DNA of 64,000 bases from Nymphaea colorata. Its lineage: Eukaryota > Streptophyta > Magnoliopsida > Nymphaeales > Nymphaeaceae. A program made the translations under genes and the position numbers. Below, in pieces: positions 17,032-62,450 of the stretch (positions are counted from its first letter, which is position 1; each line of letters opens with the position of its first letter). The notes under the pieces are model-generated. The model worked only from the letters and a program-made list of their open reading frames with translations, had not been told where the DNA came from and did no database searches. The stretch is taken from the NCBI RefSeq assembly GCF_008831285.2, contig NC_045147.1, forward strand, positions 3,126,001 through 3,190,000, in the 5' to 3' direction.

Positions 17032-18590
17032 CGATATTTGTCAGATAATGAAATTTTAAAAATGCATTGCTCACCGCTTCTCTCTAAATATTGTCTATCA
17101 ATAGTAGGGAAGTCATTTGAAACATGCTAAATTTGCAGACTTACGAAGGTACACATTAGGATGCCTTGTCCTACTTCAGTCTACAACATCATGGAAAGTT
17201 GCTTTGGGCATTAGCTCGAGAATCTGATCAAATCAAAGCACAAACCCACCAAACTAATTAAGTATGGGGCGCAGGGCCTTGGAGCGCCAAAGCAATTGCA
17301 CTTCCCTTTCATATCTTATATAAGAACCAACGCCACTTTATTAGCAGTCCATACACTTGCTGTAGAAGAACTCCACCGAAAATACAACCACTGCAGGGGC
17401 ACCATCGTCTGCTGTTATAACTAGCAGAACCCATTTTTGTTAGCACTAAAACAATGCAATCTAAATGCAAGCCAAAGAAAGTGTCTATAGAACAAAGAGA
17501 ACAAGGAAATTCAATAAGAAATGTTTTTCTCCATGACGACTGTTAAAGAGTGCATGCAATTTCGCATCCCAGTTTTCATCAGTGTTTGTACTCGACGAAC
17601 ATGGAGCGAGTTTTTTGTGATCACTTTCGCGAACCTGCAAAAGATTGAAAATTTCCATCTTTCTGTTTCCATGCAAAATTAGACTCCTAGCTGGTTGTAA
17701 ATGATGCTGATCTTTGAGTGCATTTGCTCCCTTTTCCATTCAACCAGGACAGTTCAGCTAGCCAGGGGTGGAGACAGATGTGGACTAAGTGTGGGCAATT
17801 GCCCACACAGACCCAAAAAAAGGTTCTTATTTTGATACTGATGTTTTAGAGCAAATTTTTCTCATTTATATATTGGTGCGCCTTAAAAATTTGAGAAGAA
17901 GAAAAAGAGAACCTAACAAATTGTCCCTGCTTCTTTAGTCTGGGCAAACAGGGTCACAACTGAACCCACTCTCGGTCTTTTGGTCGGTAGATCCTAATCT
18001 GCTCCCTATCAGTTTCAGATTTAACCCTAAAAATGGTAAGAATAATGACTACTAATCACTTAATAACCCTCTTTATAAAATTTTCAAAATTCTTGACAAT
18101 GTGAAACTAAACTTTGAGAATGTTACAAACAAAACTCATGATAATTGAATTCGAGACCTTCTTCAAATTAGAGACCTTAATTTGATCCACTCGACTTCAT
18201 GTGTGGAGTTTTTGCATCACCTCTAACAATAAACAGACCCATGGATTTGACATGGCATGCTTTTGTTGATATAACATAAGATCTACACGAACATATTGAT
18301 ACATCAATCTAATATATTATGTCTAATCTAGAATCTACACATCAAATCTCCATTTTACTCTCCATTCTAACAGAAGGTCTTGATCTAAAATCAGAAAGGG
18401 GAATATTTGAACTTAGTCCATAAAAATTCAGATCATATGGATCTAAGATCGAATTAGATCAGAAGTAATCAAGTGTTACATAAAAGAAACGTTCCTTTTG
18501 CATGTGATTGGACCACTATTTTTCGGCTTCTATTACTTGGGTAGCAGGTGTCGGCAGGCATTATTACTATGCTTCCGGTCTTCTGAATTA
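16150..18590. other. AT-rich intergenic DNA, no gene seen
   Basis: It contains a (TG)n/(TA)n tract near 16765-16795, another (TA)n at about 16992-17028, and at about 17766 a start aggggtggagacagatgtgg followed by gggcaattgcccac. The latter resembles the ends of the small GGGTGGAGCCA-type elements seen at 54166 and 63766. Frames are short and featureless. Confidence 0.4.
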
Positions 18591-18591
18591 A

Positions 18592-19695
18592 CCTTACTAA
18601 ACTAAACACCCAAAGTTCCCTTCACGCATCACACAAGAAGTAGTGGGATGGGCTGGTTAAGCTCAACAAAAGGAAAGGTTATATGTAAAGGACAAGTCTG
18701 TTTTCCATCAAACTCAACAAAGGTGCAACAGACAACTTCTTAGTTTGCAAAAGTATAAAAGCTAGCCCATCCAAATATTTTTCTATATATGCACCCACCC
18801 ACAGACCTAGTCTTTTGATTTCAACCAAACCATGTAACTAAAATATATAGACACACTTCTTAGACAAGGTTAAGTTTTCCTTCGAGGTACCCATTTCTGC
18901 AATGCAACTACTTTTCATAACATAGTTGTTCTGGTAAAAAGGAAAATTATAAATGTTACAATTATACTTTAGTTGACAAGTATACACAGGTCAACTACTT
19001 TTCATGACGTCATAACCTGGACTTCCAGCCTATTTCCGCCCGAAACTTCCTGCTGCCTTCCGACCTCAGCTGCCCGTCATCCGCTCCAATGAATTTTGAA
19101 GGGAGGCCCATGGACGCTGCAACATTGAAGGTCCAGAAGGTCTACAGGAGTTACAGGACCAGACGTCAGCTTGCCGACTCTGCTGTCATCGCCGAAGTGC
19201 TATGGTTGTTCTCTTTCCTCATGCCTCCCTTCTCTTTCAACCTTCTTCACTCCGCTCCCACATCCCCCTTTCTTGTCCACTCTTTCGTTTCATTCGGACA
19301 TTTTAAACAAGTTATTCAAATTTTCAGGTGGCAGGCCATCAATTTCGTCCGCCTAAACCACAGCACGATCTCCTTCTTCAATTATAGCAAGCCGGAAACC
19401 CCTGCTGCCAAATGGAGTCGAGTTAGCGGAAACGCATCGAAGGTCCGGTTTTTTTTTTTTGTGCTTTTGTTGTGACTTTTTCGTCCTTTTGTGGTCCTTT
19501 TGGGTAGTACCTGGAAATTAGCTGAGATGATGCAGCAACTCATCAACCCTGCTCACCGGCTGCCTGAAAAAACGGTTTCATTGGAATATTGATTTTAAAA
19601 TGGGTTTACTAAACAGTGACTTCGAATTCAATCTTAGTTATTGTTTTTATGTTGTGTATCGCTCACGCACTAGAGAACCGCCTTATTGAGCATCT
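18592..19695. repeat. Duplicated ~1.1-kb unit, copy A (carries IQM exons)
   Basis: It starts ccttactaaactaaacaccc and runs to ccttattgag. The same order of sequence recurs at 22460-23526 (copy B), about 3.9 kb downstream in direct orientation, with small indels and substitutions. The unit carries an ~200-bp arm that is also inverted at 22091-22320, then about 300 bp of upstream sequence, then two IQM-like exons. Confidence 0.85.
19089..19442 (+). pseudogene. IQM-type IQ-motif protein, 5' fragment (copy A)
   Basis: Two exons can be read. 19089-19204 gives MDAATLKVQKVYRSYRTR and onwards, an IQ calmodulin-binding motif ending EVLW. 19328-19442 gives WQAINFVRLNHSTISFFNYS then KPETPAAKWSRV. The donor after 19204 and the acceptor before 19328 are GT and AG and join in frame, rebuilding the LWWQA sequence. 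By recollection this is the start of the conserved core of plant IQM proteins, which continues for several hundred more residues. Nothing resembling the following exons is present before the repeat begins at 20044. It is therefore a 5' fragment, although these two exons are themselves undamaged. The reading frame stays open upstream of 19089, so the true start may be earlier. Confidence 0.7.
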
Positions 19696-34400: not shown

Positions 34401-37400
34401 GTAGACATGGCTTCGAAGACCCTCTGACTGGCTAATTGAACAATGCCATCACAAGAGTTCGTGAGGGTCTTTTCCTACCATCACTTGCTCAGTTCCCGAG
34501 AAGAATTGCAAAGAGACTATCCCATAGATTTCCAAATACCATTGGAAATCCAAATCCGGTATACCACACGTCCTGATTTCCTTAAAATGTTCATAAGACC
34601 TTGTATTGACATGGACCTTTGCTAGTTTGGCTTCCTTCTTTTCACAGCTACAAGACTGATGTAATGCATTGAGTCGTCAAAATATCTTCTCAAGCAACAT
34701 AAAGCTAGAGATACGCAAGGAAGGACTCAAATTGTATTAGGGTTTTGGTAACAAGAATAACCATAGAATTTCAAGGTCAAATCAGTTATTGTTTCTTTGG
34801 AATCTATTACTTAGGGCATAGTTCTCAACATCAGCTTAACTTTGACTGCAATTAGCAGCATAGTATCTGGTTGAATCAAGAATGCATTGCAAAGCAACTC
34901 ACTGATGCTTGTACAGGTGACAGCCAAACTTTTTGTAGTAAACAAGCCAACGCTCCAACCACAGTAGCCGTACCAGTCTTCCATTCATGGGCAGTTTCAT
35001 TTGGATCTTCCTCTTCAGGAACTGAATCAACCCAAGTACGACTAGTTGCTGCTAAAGCAGCAAATGCTGGTTCAAAAACCTGCACAAAGTTCCAAGTTGT
35101 TGTAAAAAGCAATGCTCAGATGGAAAAACCACAGCACTATAATTTTTTTCTGAAGAAATGGAGATTCATCAAATATAATGGGCCAAACAGAAAGTAAGCT
35201 TATTAGTTTCATATGAAAATCCAACCATTTGAAATCCAAGAGCAAATTTTGAAGAGGAAGAAAGTCAGATATAACTTAGGGTGCTTGTATGAGAGGAACC
35301 GATAATAAAGAATAAACATTACAGAAAGGTACCTGTGGCCATGGTTCTGGACTAGGTGGCACGTGCTTTGGAATAGCAGCAGATATTGCTGACACTAGCA
35401 TAGGTATATGACATGTAATCTTATGATCGCCTAAAGTCACTACATTCATCAAAAGATGGAACATAAGAGAGGCTATGTTTTCATCATCTTCATTCACCAC
35501 TCCAACCAATATTTTCAGAAGCGGCAACCATTTAGGTGGCCCATAGAAAGAACCTAAAAGATGTAAAATCAAAAATAAATGTAAGTAAACAGGAAGATGG
35601 AAATGAGACCAGCAATACCTCAAGCAATTCTCCAATAGCAGCAGCAGCAGACGTACGGACTGGATAGCAATTTATATCATCTTCATCAGGCATCACCATT
35701 GCCTTGAGAAGCGCATTATACATATCTGCATTCATTTGCTGAACAAAGCAACAAAGGCAGGAAGCATAAAAAAAAGATCCACAAATAAATGTGTTAGAAT
35801 ATCACGTAATAGGGAACCGGGTCCGGATATGGACCCGGTACCCATGGGCATGGGAACCGAGGATGGCTCGGTGCCCTAGGCAGGTTTCCTCTCCCTCTTA
35901 TTTTCTGATCAAGAATTGTAATCAGTTGATTAAGTGATAATAGACTCTCTCTCCTAGGGTTGCGGTTTTGCCCTTAGGTTAGAGCTTCTCCGTGTTTTTT
36001 TTCCTCTTTCCTGAGGTTTTCCACGTATATCTTGTGTTGCTTCTTCGTTTCTTCTTCCGTTGCGTGTGGGGTTCAGTCTGTGATCGTGGAGTTTCCGCCG
36101 TTCTTGTGCCGCTGCCATCATTTCCGTCGTCGCCACCGGTGTTGTCTTTTCCGCCGCCGCCTGCGATGCCGTCGTCGCATCCGTCATCGCCCTTTGCTTC
36201 GCCGCCTCTTGCACCGCCGCCGTCTCCTGTGCACCGTCGTCGCTGCTCTTGAGCCGTCACTGCCTCTCTTACGCAGTACTCCCTCTCGTGTTTTCTGGTG
36301 GTGGATATTGTTTGTCTTTGGTGCTCGTGATGGCCGCAGAGATGACTCCCAAGATCGATGTTGCCTTTGACACGGGCAGCAATACCAAGAGCGAGAATGT
36401 ATCTGTTCAAGTCACCTCTATTCGGCTGAACAAAGACAACTATTTCTCTTGGTCTGCTGCGCTGGAAATTGGAATCACGAGTCGCGGTCGTCTGCCCTAC
36501 ATCACTGGGGAGAAACCCGCGCCTAGTAAAACCGATCTTAGTTGGGCGACTTGGGCGTTGGAGGATAGTCAAGTTAAGGTATGGATTATTAGTTCTGTTT
36601 CTGCTGATATTCAGCCCCTTATTTTGCGAAAGTCAACCTCATATGACATGTGGACTGTGCTTGCGAGGATGTATGGCTGTAAAAAGAGAGTCCTGCATAC
36701 GTACCAAACCAAACGCAGCATATATTCCCTTAAACATGGTGACTTGTCTTTGGCATCCTTTTATGCAGCCCTGAAGACTAAATGGGAGGAACTGGATTAT
36801 CATGTGAATGATGACTGGTACTGTGGTTCTGATCATGCCCTGTACTGGCAGAAGGAGTGGATGGACCGGACGTTTATTTTTTTGGGAGGTCTGCGTGATG
36901 AATTTAACTCTATTAGGAGTCAAATTCTCAACTGTTACGAGACTCCTGGGATTGAGGAGGTGTATGCTCGGGTGGAATCTGAGGAACAATGCCGTCATGT
37001 GATGCATATCGACTCTAGTCATGGGAGTTCACCCTCAGCCTTTGTTAGCCGTGCTCCAGGGACTGGGCAGCGTCCTGTTCGGCGTTGTAGTCATTGTAAC
37101 AAGTTGGGGCATTCTGTTGATTTCTGTTGGGATATTCATCCTGAGAAGAAGCTCTCCCGTGGTCGTCCCCCTTCTGGTCGGCGAGGTCCTTCTGTGCCCG
37201 ACTCCAGTCATGGTAGCTCTTCTAGTGTTGAAAAATCAAAGCTTTCCTCTGACCAAATCAAGGAACTGCAAGCTTATATCAGCCGGCTTTCTACTACTCA
37301 GGAGGATGCCTCCACGTCTGAGGGTGCTCAGTTAGCCCAAGCTCTTGTTGCCACAAGCGATCAAGGTAATCCCTCACTTGGTGATTGGATTGTTGACAGT

Positions 37401-40400
37401 GGAGCTACGCATCATATGACAAGGGACCCTAAGATGTTTCAAGAGTACAAATTGTCTTCAGGGCAGCAACACGTGTCTATGGCTGATGGGTCTTCCATAT
37501 CTGTGGTTGGAAAAGGGAGTTTGTCCTTGTTAAATAAATATCGTCTTCATAATGCTCTTCATGTTCCCAATATCCCTGTGAATTTTTTATCTGTCAGCAA
37601 TATTACAAAAGAACTCAATTGCAATCTAATCTTTTCTGCTAATCATTGTTCCCTGCAGGACTTGGTGACGGGGAAGAAGATTGGGATTGGTTCGGTCATT
37701 GATGGTCTCTACAGACTGCCCGTGCAGGTTGCTTCTGCTCTCATTTCAGCCACTAGTGGACAGTTGTCGGGCGTGGAGGACAGGTCTACCATTATGCGAT
37801 GGCACGAGCGTCTTGGACATCTCCCATTCCAGTTGATTAAGAAGTTGTTCCCTAGTTTTTTTACTTCTGTTTTCATGGACTCCTTCACTCACTCTGATGT
37901 TTGGGGTCCTTCGGGAGTACCCACCTGTCGTGGTTTTCATTACTTTATGACTCTTATTGATGACTACTCCCGGTGTACGTTCGTGTACCTGTTGAAAGAA
38001 CGTAGTGAAGTCCCAATCATTGTTAAAAATTTTGTTGCATTTGTTGAGAATCAATTTCAGACGTCTGTTCAGACTTTCCGCACTGATAATGCTAGAGAGT
38101 ATGTCTCCCAATCCCTGGATGACTTCTTGAGGAGCAAGGGTATTGTTCATGGGACGTCCTGTAGCTACACTCCTCCACAGAATGTATAACAACCCGACCC
38201 ACTCCCGGGCTCGGGCCCCTGGTTCGATGGATCCCAACCCGCCCCCTAGCAGTTTCGGTTCCAATTCTAAAAAGGCTAGGAACCAGGACAATCATCTCAT
38301 TAAAGCCTCCCTTTATAAGCCCTTGAAGATCCCTCACAATCTTCGATACGGGACTAAACTTCTGGGGTGTTACAATCCACCCCCCTTAAGGCACACGCGT
38401 CCGCGCGTGTGGGACCCCAGGTCCGAGTGTTGAAACTGCTCTGATACCACTATAACAACCCGACCCACTCCCGGGCTCGGGCCCCTGGTTCGACGGATCC
38501 CAACCCGCCCCCTAGCAGTTTCGGTTCCAATCCTAAAAAGGCTAGGAACCAGGACAATCATCTCATTAAAGCCTCCCTTTATAAGCCCTTGAAGATCCCT
38601 CACAATCTTCGATACGGGACTAAACTTCTGGGGTGTTACAGAATGGCGTGGCCAAACGAAAAATGTCACCCGTGCTATTATGTTCCACAGGCACGTTCCT
38701 AAGCGCTACTAGAGTGATGCTCTTTTCACCAGTGCCCATCTTATTAACCGTATGCCTACTCGTGTGTTGAATGGTCGTACTCCTTACTCTGTGCTCAGGC
38801 CCACTCATAACCCCTGGTCTCTTACTCCTCGGATGTTTGGGTGTATTTGCTTTGTTCATAACCATAGTCCAACCATCAAGAAACTTGACCCTCGGTCTGT
38901 CAAGAAACTTAAATACAAATACCCGAATTAATAATATACGCACACTTTAACATGGCACAATTTCATATGCCTATATGATAAAACTTCATCAATCAAAGCC
39001 ACTAAATCATTCTTTGGTTGGATTATTGATTTAAGTCTTTGCTTATAGATCAAGCTATTGAGGAAATGATGATTCTAACAAGAACAAGGACTGAACAAAC
39101 TTAACCTGGATGGTGCAGAAAGAAAAGGATGAAATGCTGGCATAAACAGCATACAAAACTTTTTTTTCTCTTTTTCCTACCCTCACACAAATCCTTCCTA
39201 ATTTATCTTGATTTTTCTCCCATACCACTTTTTTTTTTTCACAAACACTCGCTATTTCATAAGATGAAAGGAGATGGGTTTTACCACCCCCACCAAAAAA
39301 AAAAGGGAAAGAACACCCAGGGGTTCTCCTGTTGCACAGTCTATAAAAAGTCAACCCACCTGAGGTAAGTAGGATACAAGTTCTCCAAGAAGCCAATTTG
39401 CAGTATCAAGCAAATAAGGTGAACAAGATGCAGATGAATATAGTGGCATCACATTATTTTGGACCATTTTTTCTGTGTAGTCTGGATTTTTGTCTTTCAG
39501 AAACTGTAAACCAAAGAAAAAGAAAAAAATAGTAACCAACGAAAATCAGCAGTGGGGGTTATACAAGATAACGCACATCTTGAAGACCTCCATATGCCAT
39601 CAGAACACCATAATACATGCAGTTCGTGTTTAAAAAGTATTTGTAATAGATAAACAAAGAAAGCAGGTCAGCTTCCATCAAATCTATTTTCTAGAACATA
39701 TAACTCCATTAATACTCACTCACTAATGCCCGTTGAAGTGGTCATGGCATCTAAGGGAATGGAATACTTTGACAAAAATGGCATTACCAGTGAATCCCCA
39801 AAAGCAAAAGCCTTCCTTTCCTTTAATATGCTTGGCACCTTTTTACGCTTCCCAGAAATCGCAGGACCTGCATTGCGCGAGTTTGACAAAGGGGGGCCCT
39901 GCAGATTCATAAGGTGAAGCATTTATATATGTATCAGGCTTCTTCTTTCCTTACCTGAATCTGGGAGAGCAGGTTGAGATAAAAATAGACATCAAAAGAC
40001 AATGAAAATAGCACCTTTGACTTTGCCATAACACCCAGTAAATTTATTGCACTTTTTCTTGCAGTAAAAAGCTCTTCCCTCCATCGAGAACATTCGCCCT
40101 AAAAACAGTATGTACGAAACAGCTAACAAATATGGCAACAGCAAGAAGAGAACAGGGGAGTGAAAATTACTGGAAAGCAATATCACATACAAGTTCTGAT
40201 GGAAGATTCTTTCTTATATACTCTTCTGGATCCTCCTCCCACTTGGATACATCCTTTACAAGAGATTAAATTAGCTATACATGTCACAAAATTCACTAAC
40301 AATTAACAACATACATCATGCAGTTCTGTTTTAAAATGTTAACATATAATTTTGATATTTTTTTGCAGTACAACTGTACAAGAATCTAGAATTAAAGCCC

Positions 40401-57958: not shown

Positions 57959-58034
57959 TGGTATCAGAGCTATATCTGTGAGGAATTTTTTTTGGGCTAT
58001 CTTCTTCATGGCTTCGGGTGCGTCTTCTTCTTCC

Positions 58035-58678
58035 ATAATGGCAGCTAAGTATCCATAGCCTTCCACAGTTAATGTTGCAAATTTTATCTCTATCAAACTT
58101 TCTCATAAGAGTTACTTCCTTTGGAAAACCCGGGCTCATTGAAAGCCAAGACATGATGGGATTTATTGATGGACAAGTTTCCAAGCCGACCTCCACCATT
58201 GAAATCGTTGAAAATGGTGAGGCCCACTCTGCTCCAAATTTAGATTTCTTTGCTTAGAAAAAATCAAATTGACTTCTTAGGGGGTGGATATTGAATCACT
58301 CTCTGAAGAAGTTCTAGGCCTGACTCCAAAGCTCTGCCGATGTTTGGAATGCTCTTATAATGGCAGCTAAGTATCCATAGCCTTCCACAGTTAATGTTGC
58401 AAATTTTATCTCTATCAAACTTTCTCATAAGAGTTACTTCCTTTGGAAAACCCGGGCTCATTGAAAGCCAAGACATGATGGGATTTATTGATGGACAAGT
58501 TTCCAAGCCGACCTCCACCATTGAAATCGTTGAAAATGGTGAGGCCCACTCTGCTCCAAATTTAGATTTCTTTGCTTAGAAAAAATCAAATTGACTTCTT
58601 AGGGGGTGGATATTGAATCACTCTCTGAAGAAGTTCTAGGCCTGACTCCAAAGCTCTGCCGATGTTTGGAATGCTCTT
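58035..58678 (+). repeat. 322-bp tandem duplication in the Copia gag region
   Basis: Copies 58035-58356 and 58357-58678 both start ataatggcagctaagtatcc and end gtttggaatgctctt. They look identical over nearly all of their length, including internal stop codons, so the duplication is younger than the decay of gag. Confidence 0.95.
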
Positions 58679-59640
58679 ATAAAGGTCTTTGTTAGATAAT
58701 CAAAAGACCAAGAGTTTTTTTTAAACAAAAAATTACAGACGTTTCAAAAGCATGACAAAACTATCACTGAGTATATAAGAGCGTTCAAAACCATATGTGA
58801 TGAGTTGGCAGCCATTGAGAAACCCTTGTTGGATCAAGACAAAGTATTTTGATTCATAAATGGTCTTGGATTAGGTTATGAATCATTTATGACGTCCATA
58901 CTTCAACCTCCTATTCCGACTTATATTGATGTTGTCTCATTGCTTGAAAGCCAAGACAACATGAAAAACCTCCATGGTCTTCAACTCAATCCTAATGTAG
59001 TCAATGTAGGTCAGCAGGTTCAATCTTCCAACTCTTACTACTATAGAGGATGTGACAACTACAATAAGAAGAATAATAACTCTCGCTTCAACTTTTGAGG
59101 ATGAGGATTTACGCCTGCCTCTCAATCACGTCCCAACAATGTTCCAGCTAATACAAGGTAGAATAATTCTCAGCCTCAAGTAAAAACTCCATGTCAGATT
59201 TGTGGCTTAAGTAACCACACAGCCTTTAAGTGTTATCACATATTCAATCAGGCGTACCAGCCGAAAGACCATCTGTTTTCCACTATGCAAGTTCCTGACC
59301 CAAATGACGAAGACTAGTATTCTGACACTAGAGCAACGACTCATGTGATAGATGACCCAGGTAAACTCAAAAATCTTATTAAATACAATGGAACTGATCC
59401 TGTAATGGTTAGAAGTTGGCAGCATTTGCCTATAACTCGTATTGGTTCTGCTAATCTTGATCTTGGACATGAATCACTTTCTCTTGATAATGTGCTAGTA
59501 GTTCCTGATATTAAAAAAAATCTTATTTATGTGAGTCAGCTTACTTTTTCTATGCCATATGTGTTTGATTTCACATCTGATTCATTTGTGATTAAGGACA
59601 AGGAAATAAGTCAGGTAATTGTAAAGGGAACTAGAGAATG
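58679..59640 (+). pseudogene. Copia gag, zinc knuckle and protease region, decayed
   Basis: The pieces run in order. Gag gives KTITEYIRAFKTICDELAA, then YESFMTSILQPPIPTYIDVV. A zinc knuckle CQICGLSNHTAFKC with C-x2-C-x4-H-x4-C spacing follows at about 59193-59234. Next is a degenerate protease site (YSDTRATTHVID where DSGATxH is usual) and a pre-integrase part (LDNVLVVPDIKKNLIYVSQL). Stops occur at several points. Confidence 0.8.
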
Positions 59641-59866
59641 AGACTTATACGCACTCAAGGCCAGACCAAAGTTAGTGTTTTTTTCTGATCATTTTAGGAC
59701 AGCAACTTCAAAAGTATGACATAGTCGACTTGGGCATCCATATGCTAAGATCATTGATTCTTGTCTTGAAAGGGTAAAATAAGTTTAATGACAAAAACTT
59801 CTACTTTTTCAATTTGTCAAAGCTGTCAATTGGATAAAGCAACACATTTGTCTCTTTTTCCATTAG

Positions 59867-60472
59867 ATGATGAATATTATGAACCTCTTGAAAAAATACA
59901 CTGTGATCTTTGGGGCCCAACGCCTATTGATTCTTGTCAAAAGGTTTGATATTATGTTTTTTTTTGTTGATCAGCACTCTAGATATTCTTGGATCTATCC
60001 ATTAAAAACAAAGTCTAATTTTTTCACAAAGTTTATTGAATTTCATAAGATGGTGACGACGCAATTTGGAAGATCTATAAAAAAATTTCAAAGTGAAGAG
60101 GGTGGCAAATTTAATAGCTCTGCATTTCTCTCTTATTTAAGAGAACATAGAATCAAACATCTCAAGGCTTGTCCAAAAACACCGCAACAGAATGGGATGG
60201 TAGAGCGAAAACATAGGTCAGTTACCAAACTTGGATTAACTCCACTTTTTCATAGTAATCTACCAGCAAACTATTGGGTAGAAGCTTTTTCAATAGCTGT
60301 CTGGCTTATAAATCGGCTGCCTACATCTTCGCTACAAATGCAAAGCCCATATGAGAGCCTATTTAAAAAACCAGCAGACTATTATTGCCTACAGACATTT
60401 GGTTGTAGATGCTTTCCCTACATTAAGAGTTACAACAAACAGAACCCAAATCTTTACCATGTGTCTTTATAG
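59867..60472 (+). pseudogene. Copia integrase, decayed
   Basis: 201-codon frame with FFVDQHSRYSWIYPLKTKS, KKFQSEEGGKFNSSAF, TPQQNGMVERKHRSV and YWVEAFSIAVWLINRLPT. The second catalytic Asp of the family (in R-S-D-G-G-G-E-F) is replaced: the window reads QSEEGGKF. It ends where the chromodomain-like part should continue. Confidence 0.85.
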
Positions 60473-60608
60473 GGTATAGTGACTACCACAAGGATATTGT
60501 TGCCTTTTACCCTTTGACAAAGTGTTTATATTTCAAAACACGTTGTGTTTAATGAAAAATGTTTTCCTTTTAATCAAGGTTCTGCTAGAACACCACTAAA
60601 TTATAGTT

Positions 60609-62450
60609 TTGCTCATGACCTTGTATCATTTTCTCCCATCGCTACTCAAACCGAAAACCGAAACGCCTGCACTACCCAATGTGGACCCACATGATCTTGC
60701 CCAACTACATAATAGTGAACCAGCACCTCATCCTATTGATCATACTGATTCACAATCTCAACTTCAGCCATTAGCCCCCGCTCCTTTATTTCCCTCCCTA
60801 CTAGTCTTGCCTCCACTAAGCTCACCATCACCTAGCTCACCTCCACCTGTACTAGGTACCTCTACTGGACTCTCTCATCCCATGGTTACACGTTCTCAAA
60901 ATGGTATTATTAAACCCAACCCTAAATACCTATTAACTACCTATGTTCCCACCAAACCAAAAAAAAATTCCATTGCCCTTAAACACCCTGGTTGGAGAAG
61001 AGCTATGGAAGATGAAACGGCAGCCTTGATAAAAAATGAGACATGGACATTAGTATCTAAAGATCCCTCAATGCACATTATTGGAAGCCGATGGGTTTAC
61101 AAGACTAAATTAAAGAGTGATGGCCAAGTTGACAGACTCAAAGCATGGCTAGTAGTGCAGGGCTATAATCAGGTTGCAGACATGGATTTTCTTGAAACTT
61201 TTTCACCAGTTGTAAAACCAGCAACTATACAGATCGTTCTTTCTATCGCTCTCATGAACGGTTGGACTCTTGGACTCTTAAATAATTAGATGTCAAGAAT
61301 GCATTCTTGAATGGTTATTTGACTAAAACTATCTTCATTGAGTAGCCACCTGGGTTTAAAGACAAACAATTTCCTCATCACGTTTGCAAATTAAACTGAG
61401 CACTCTACGGACTTAAACAGACTCCACAAGCATGGTATGATCTTTTCACTCAGTTTTTGTTCTCTCAAAATTTTCAATCCAGCTCCGCTGATTCCTCAGT
61501 ATTTGTTCGACTTCAAGATTCCACGCTGACTACACTTTTATTATATATGGATGATATTATTCTAATGGCGGCTGCCCAAACTTTCTTGCTTCCTTCCAAA
61601 AGCAAGTGTCTCATACCTTTGCCATGAATGATCTTGGGGAATTACACTATTTTTTGGGCATTTAAGTTCAATGAAATGCCTCAAGACTTTTTCTCAACTA
61701 GCAACGCTATGCTATGGAAATTCTAAAGTGAGCACAAATGCAATCATGTAAACCAACTGCTACACCCATGGTTGCTAATGTTTCTAGCATAAGCACTTCA
61801 GAGACAGCTTATCCCAGTGCTACTATGTATCACAGTCTTATTGGCGCCTTGCAATATCTTACATTTATGCGACCAGACATTACTTATGCCGTCAATTATG
61901 TCTCACAGTTTATGCACGCCCATTCTATAAGACATTTTCAGCTGCTTAAACAAATTCTTTGCTATTTTCAGGGAAGTATATCTCATGGGATGCAATTTTT
62001 TAAGCCCAAATAGTTATCCGTTCGAGCATATTTTGATGCAGATTGGGATGATTGCCCCAACACTCATAGGTCTACAACAGGCTAATGTACCATTTTGGGA
62101 CGCATATTTTGGCTTCTAAGAAACAACATAGTGTTGCTCGAGCATCTTGCGAAGCTGAATATCGTGCTCTTGCAACAATAGCAGCAGAACTAACTTGGAT
62201 AACCTTTATCCTTAGATATCTTGGTCTTTTTCTATCACAACCTCCACTTCTCTTATGTGACAACCTTTCTACTTTGCAATCCACCATCAAAACAGCCAAT
62301 CACTCCCAGATGAAGCATATTGAGCTTGATTTTCATTTTGTAAGTGAAAAGGTGGCTCTTGGATCCTTAGTCACTCAATTCGCACTTGACAACATTGGGT
62401 TACAATCTCGGTCTTTGACAAGATTTACGCTCGAGATTGAGAGGGAATGT
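60609..62450 (+). pseudogene. Copia reverse transcriptase and RNase H, decayed
   Basis: RT starts at HPGWRRAMEDETAALIKNET (about 60985) and has SRWVYKTKLKSDGQVDRLKA and FLETFSPVVKPATIQIVLS. After a stop near 61289 come LDVKNAFLNGYL and ALYGLKQTPQAWYD. The active-site YMDD is at 61544-61555. Frameshifts follow. The connection/RNase H part reads YHSLIGALQYLTFMRPDITY, YFDADWDDCPNTHRSTTG and ASCEAEYRALATIAAELTWI. The Pro/Ser-rich stretch before RT (60700-60880) is the usual linker. Confidence 0.88.

Follow-up and report, generated by a model that had tools for sequence, protein, structure and literature searches.

A recent TRIM insertion in a dead Copia fragment of Nymphaea colorata, its dispersed family and a candidate Ty3/Gypsy helper

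A search for direct repeats combined with motif reading identified a complete TRIM element of 456 bp on the minus strand at positions 38185..38640 of the window (the entire 64,000-nucleotide stretch of Nymphaea colorata DNA that was analysed). Its LTRs, each 190 nt long, occupy 38451..38640 (the 5' LTR in the element sense, TGTAACACCCC...GTTGTTATA) and 38185..38374 (the 3' LTR in the element sense), both on the minus strand, and enclose an interior of 76 bp. On the same strand, this interior begins with a single base and the primer-binding site TGGTATCAGAGC (38438..38449, an exact motif match), which we take to be the complement of the 3' end of the plant initiator tRNA-Met, and ends with the polypurine tract CTTAAGGGGGGTGGAT (38375..38390) directly before the 3' LTR. 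The insertion flanks read cagaatg/TATAACAAC...GTGTTACA/gaatg, giving a 5-bp target-site duplication, GAATG, at 38180..38184 on the left and 38641..38645 on the right. Every part that the initial annotation had listed, namely the LTR pair, the tRNA-Met-type primer site, the polypurine tract and the GAATG duplication, was located in the sequence. With so short an interior the element has no coding capacity, and both its total length (below about 1 kb) and its LTR length (below about 250 bp) lie in the TRIM range. A polypurine tract of the CTTAAGGGGGGTGGAT type is recognizable, with some changes, in 43 aligned interiors of the family. A perfect 8-bp hairpin (38392..38411, minus strand) lies in the interval from primer site to polypurine tract; the interior bearing it is by itself no more stable than its shuffles (z -0.54), and no compensatory changes for the hairpin were seen by eye in the 43 aligned interiors. 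As RNA, the whole element is more stable than its shuffles (z -3.08). The window element is a real, ordinary TRIM of a large family.

The two LTRs are identical at 188 of 190 positions (99%) and differ at exactly two sites, each a T/C pair (38228/38494 and 38266/38532). In the element sense both are G to A changes located in the 3' LTR, the G being present in 81 of 84 and 82 of 84 other family LTRs, respectively. At a substitution rate of 1.3e-8 per site and year, which is assumed and may not be that of the plant, this corresponds to an age of about 0.4 million years (95% interval 0.05-1.5). The claim that two visible LTR differences mark a recent insertion is a fair one: only 4 of the 57 family copies sampled have fewer, and several have as many.

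The TRIM is inserted into a Copia fragment that extends upstream from gag to the integrase core (36084..38184, plus strand). The frame 36084-38189 matches Pfam models of the Copia gag, Pol beta-barrel, GAG-pre-integrase and integrase core; the rve match reaches residue 697 of 701, at TPPQN, the very point in the Copia integrase after which the insertion had been placed. Past the TRIM the integrase sequence, read by eye, resumes at 38646..38931 (plus strand); its frame changes and a stop appears inside the first 100 bp or so, and it can be followed until close to 38.93 kb. A search of the 30-48 kb interval for a Copia LTR pair gave no further direct repeats with a length of at least 40 bases. 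Given the broken frame and the missing LTR pair, the TRIM therefore sits in a dead Copia fragment; its insertion may or may not have contributed to the death of that element. Hence the Copia integrase frame of the initial annotation stands, but its "Copia element" is a degenerate remnant rather than an intact element. Of the nesting it had proposed (host intron, Copia, TRIM), the TRIM within the Copia frame holds, but the intron layer does not find comparable support: on both sides of the Copia lie what we presume, by eye, to be minus-strand exons of a HEAT-repeat, importin-like gene, and these putative exons have no significant match in Pfam or PDB. A second Copia remnant (57959-61289) has integrase and RVT_2 matches and an exact TGGTATCAGAGC primer site at 57959, and its LTR end is unlike that of the TRIM. 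The window also contains an old relic LTR of the TRIM's own family (17952..18127, minus strand), solo-LTR-like and with no clear target duplication, which aligns nearly end to end with a local alignment score of 102 (the maximum for 20 shuffled LTRs against the window being 39). This relic is situated about 0.9 kb upstream of a frame (19008-19475) with a weak, below-cut-off match to the IQ motif (E 0.0067).

Searching the 407.8-Mb genome for the LTR/primer-site junction recovered 427 instances at up to two mismatches, against none for the reversed control; 83 of these are exact and are spread over contigs C1-C15, so that the family is a dispersed one. A search with the element itself gave at least 50 matches from the 40 scored among 1274 first-look candidates. 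We measured LTR-pair divergence (K) in 57 two-LTR copies, as the initial annotation had proposed. This sample is biased, with 43 copies picked by likeness to the window copy and 14 by the junction motif on C1-C3 (three of them for a TG..CA junction); four of the five repeats of one tandem array (L031) and copies in which either of the two LTR matches failed to cover more than 165 query bases were excluded before counting. The median K is 0.027 in the likeness-sampled copies versus 0.126 in the junction-sampled ones. Three of the 57 copies have an identical LTR pair, and one further copy has fewer differences than that of the window. An exact 5-bp duplication was scored in at least 31 of the 57, a lower bound because altered LTR ends were left unread. 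The other 26 are truncated at an end, joined in tandem, decayed or so altered at an LTR end that the duplication is hidden; for instance, the duplication of L027, hidden in this scoring, is exact in a separate reading. The initial annotation had held that a lack of paired or solo LTRs with 5-bp duplications elsewhere would speak against its reading; paired LTRs with such duplications do exist elsewhere in the genome. Thus, from the large junction count, the spread of K and the copies with identical LTRs, the family is old, large and recently active.

The copies fall into two types by their LTR ends. Both LTRs are of the TG..TA form in 43 of the 57 copies and of the TG..CA form in 4, while four copies combine the two forms and in a further six one side could not be read. 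All three identical-LTR copies end in TG..TA, and two of the three have an exact target duplication, which indicates that TG..TA ends can integrate. Divergence is greater in the few copies whose 5' LTR is of the TG..CA form (median K 0.080, n=5, versus 0.035, n=52, with uneven sampling). On a tree of the copies the TATA/TACA end state is not clustered (5 changes versus a shuffled mean of 4.9) and the tree does not give the direction of change; accordingly, we claim no single origin for TG..TA. There is a precedent in the onion element AcCOPIA1, whose termini, in the passages available from its description, are TG..TA, as in most copies of the present family; the same source describes Rosaceae elements with non-canonical TGTT/AACA ends, among which AACA3 and AACA4 are TRIMs too (PMC5659011). 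Unlike those non-canonical LTR elements, TG..CA and TG..TA copies here coexist inside one family, and these two coexisting end types are a worthwhile addition to the initial annotation, along with template-switch-like arrays and the lone TRIM/Gypsy joint from which a candidate helper can be named (see below).

We consider it highly probable (about 0.93), from its anatomy, its family with target duplications and identical-LTR copies, and the subfamily mosaics, that the window element arrived as a complete TRIM by retrotransposition using the proteins of another element. RNA polymerase II would transcribe it from the LTR, which holds a TATA-like TTATAAA; the RNA would be packaged by the Gag of another element; initiator tRNA-Met would prime its reverse transcription; and a foreign integrase would insert the cDNA, making the 5-bp duplication. 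That some active element must supply the enzymes, as the initial annotation had argued, is a sound inference. As to which, the leading candidate is a Ty3/Gypsy lineage whose primer site is the same and whose terminal signals are similar, a favoured but unproven source to which a single chimeric locus on contig C7 points.

This locus emerged when all 83 exact junctions were fetched. Eighty-one enter a TRIM-like interior (six of them only remnants of 30-54 bases). Of the other two, one (L082) is a deletion-scarred TRIM, and the C7 junction (L024/L125) enters a Ty3/Gypsy polyprotein. The order at C7 is LTR, TRIM interior, LTR, primer site and foreign interior, with an 84-bp duplication spanning the joint. 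In Pfam searches the foreign interior shows a reverse transcriptase, a zinc-binding domain, an integrase core and a Tf2-1-like SH3 domain, in the order of Ty3/Gypsy elements, with RVT_1, rve and H2C2 scoring under the cut-offs and the SH3 domain well over. Of 459 genomic candidates for the 5' interior of this Gypsy, 40 were scored, and these gave at least 55 matches. In 14 of 14 sampled relatives the primer site follows a different LTR end, GGTTGGGGTGTGACA in 11 of them and a variant of it in three (L132, L135 and L140), and the roughly 300 bp upstream of the primer site contain no match to the TRIM LTR at E<=1 in any of the 14. The joint at the primer site and the different LTR of all 14 relatives indicate that the C7 locus is a chimera and that the Gypsy family has its own LTR. 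We rejected the TRIM as a simple internal deletion derivative of this candidate Gypsy, the LTR body not being shared in any of the 14 copies. The 16-base LTR ends do show some likeness: that of TG..CA TRIM copies (GGTCGGGTTGTTACAG) agrees with that of the Gypsy (GGTTGGGGTGTGACAG) at 13 of 16 positions, compared with 12 for the TG..TA form, whereas among 127,968 16-mers of the window none reached 13 and nine reached 12. Likewise, a TRIM-like purine tract, TTAAGGAGGGTAGGA, precedes TGTAAC after the Gypsy pol (by eye, in one copy). Both likenesses speak for a transfer between TRIM and Gypsy within one particle (see below), but weakly, since a purine tract or an inverted LTR end is a generic feature. 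Further TRIM/Gypsy joints may exist among the junctions with one or two mismatches. At two other loci, L005 and L025, a TRIM copy sits within or abuts fragments of this Gypsy family or of a relative of it, and in L005 the 3' end of the TRIM is seemingly cut short at its contact with the Gypsy pol.

On this basis we tentatively propose, while rating it somewhat below an even chance, that the TRIM is trans-mobilized by a Ty3/Gypsy lineage with which it would have neither LTR body nor interior in common but only cis signals, namely the primer site, the LTR termini and a similar purine tract. The C7 chimera would then be an intermolecular second-strand transfer, in which, within a common particle, TRIM plus-strand strong-stop DNA paired with a Gypsy cDNA at its primer site; if so, the Gypsy would be the helper. 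Arrays of mixed subfamilies would reflect co-packaged TRIM RNAs, and the change from TG..CA to TG..TA would be a terminal alteration that the helper integrase tolerates. Should helpers in general share just such short cis signals, similarity searches would miss them, and joints at primer sites could reveal them.

An alternative that we take quite as seriously, though it too falls short of an even bet, is that the C7 joint is a DNA-level product of deletion or recombination across the 12-bp primer site that TRIM and Gypsy have in common, in which case it would be silent on co-packaging. The joint does lie in TGGTATCAGAG(C), which both families carry, and the locus has been rearranged further, as seen from the 84-bp duplication; the 19 kb examined downstream of the joint yielded no Gypsy LTR end and no outer duplication. 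A DNA-level origin, however, requires that a TRIM array with two interiors lay beside a Gypsy in the same orientation, and template switching is already suggested by two other arrays of the family.

Many Copia and Gypsy elements of plants are primed by initiator tRNA-Met, and a Ty1/Copia helper is as compatible as a Gypsy one with this priming and with a 5-bp duplication; the C7 joint would then be accidental. Such a helper has a parallel in rice, where a Copia element with TRIM-like LTRs is named for the TRIM OsajRetroS10 in the passages drawn on from Gao et al. 2016 (PMC4717578). Against it, none of the 83 exact junctions leads into a Copia interior, and the 57959 primer site of the second Copia remnant in the window follows an unrelated LTR end; hence we regard a Copia helper as rather unlikely.

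The mixed arrays come from a set of loci in which LTRs are shared. A pattern that misses TG..CA ends found six exact interior-LTR-interior places in the genome, and among the fetched loci L006, L008 and L013 have three LTRs, full or nearly so, around two interiors. In L006 the third LTR is 4 bases short and both interiors are of one type, whereas L008 and L013 each combine interiors of different subfamilies. Between the two outer LTRs there are 2 differences in L008 and 3 in L013; the middle LTR has 9 and 7 differences from them in the former and 9 and 6 in the latter. L008 is bounded by a single exact outer duplication, GTTAC; L013 has no exact one (GCTAT versus ACTAC), and its third LTR carries the state of the other subfamily at LTR position 15. 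In simple copies the LTR type tracks the interior type (12/1/1/19, p=4.6e-7; counted on simple copies from L001-L040, leaving out eleven loci that were array-like or damaged, as well as L014, whose LTR states are unlike). In both L008 and L013 the LTR that comes after the first interior shares the type of that interior, and the first LTR is like the last. Reverse transcription across two co-packaged RNAs predicts this order, with both outer LTRs copied from one template and the middle LTR read through, and this suggests that the two arrays arose by template switching. Complex LTR insertions via template switching were reportedly the subject of Sabot and Schulman in 2007 (cited in PMC7215508), a likeness that we draw from the title and citation of that work; in the present arrays the outer LTRs match each other, and the middle LTR agrees in type with the first interior.

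The mixed-subfamily arrays bear on the question of how arrays with shared LTRs originate, through recombination or in the course of retrotransposition, which is raised in the passages available from two published accounts; crossing-over or recombination is also proposed for them there (PMC11899658, PMC7215508). Unequal crossing-over of one insertion fits the like interiors of L006, as does any model, but it would give like interiors in L008 and L013 too, where they are unlike. Recombination of two neighbours predicts unlike outer LTRs and unlike flanks, and is at odds with outer LTRs that differ at 2 and 3 sites when the middle one differs from them at 6-9, with the GTTAC duplication of L008 and with the linkage of interior and LTR types in simple copies. 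It could draw on the inexact outer bases and the position-15 state of L013. Shared states by themselves prove little, since 135 of 468 LTR differences within simple copies are likewise between states each found in at least 8 other loci; the middle LTRs in L008 and L013 give corresponding counts of 5/9, 5/7, 4/9 and 3/6. On balance, crossing-over or neighbour recombination appears improbable for these arrays. Another possibility is that a cDNA inserted into a copy already in place, both joints falling at the LTR edge. Outside the arrays, two simple copies have the look of mosaics, L005 and L029, the latter having an A-type interior flanked by LTRs that are of another type.

A special subclass of small element is very improbable: Cassandra and Helenus (TRIMp3) share the size class and are likewise small non-autonomous LTR elements in the passages drawn on from their descriptions (PMC10886601, PMC7215508), as are retrozymes, but the 5S rRNA-like LTR sequence of Cassandra, the tRNA-like LTR sequence of Helenus and the LTR hammerhead ribozyme of retrozymes are all absent, with no Rfam match to any of them at E<=5 in 38160-38660 on either strand, none at the gathering level in the window and no tRNA found by ARAGORN. 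The sole Rfam row in 38160-38660, a CRISPR-repeat model, is below threshold (E 1.7) and was taken as chance. With Cassandra, as described in the passages cited, the window TRIM shares the miniature LTR organization, the LTR-sharing arrays and the TGGTATCAGAGC primer site (PMC7215508), and it differs in that its LTR is without 5S sequence.

Among plant TRIMs, 156 families with 289 subfamilies are reported in the passages available from Gao et al. 2016, with enzyme-encoding relatives detected by sequence similarity for 11 of the subfamilies and none for the other 278 (PMC4717578). As described there, the window TRIM resembles these in its 456-bp length, LTRs under 250 bp, primer site, polypurine tract and lack of coding sequence, as well as in its 5-bp duplications and tandem arrays. 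It differs from them, families being compared by description, in the TG..TA ends of 43 of 57 copies, and from those with similarity-found relatives in that its candidate helper is a Gypsy with another LTR (PMC4717578). A full-text literature search with the string at the LTR start returned no retrotransposon title among the matches listed.

Some copies record rearrangements of their surroundings. The L031 locus (G000:C3:26774500-26780300) comprises five head-to-tail units of 958 bp, each with one TRIM with a shortened 3' LTR, and is a TRIM captured in a tandem repeat. L068 (C4:4692700-4694600) and L069 (C4:4855700-4857600), which lie 163 kb apart and have the same truncation of the 3' LTR, are perhaps a segmental duplication. 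Inverted TRIM LTRs or copies lie beside a TRIM copy at L007, L057, L058, L063, L087 and L095.
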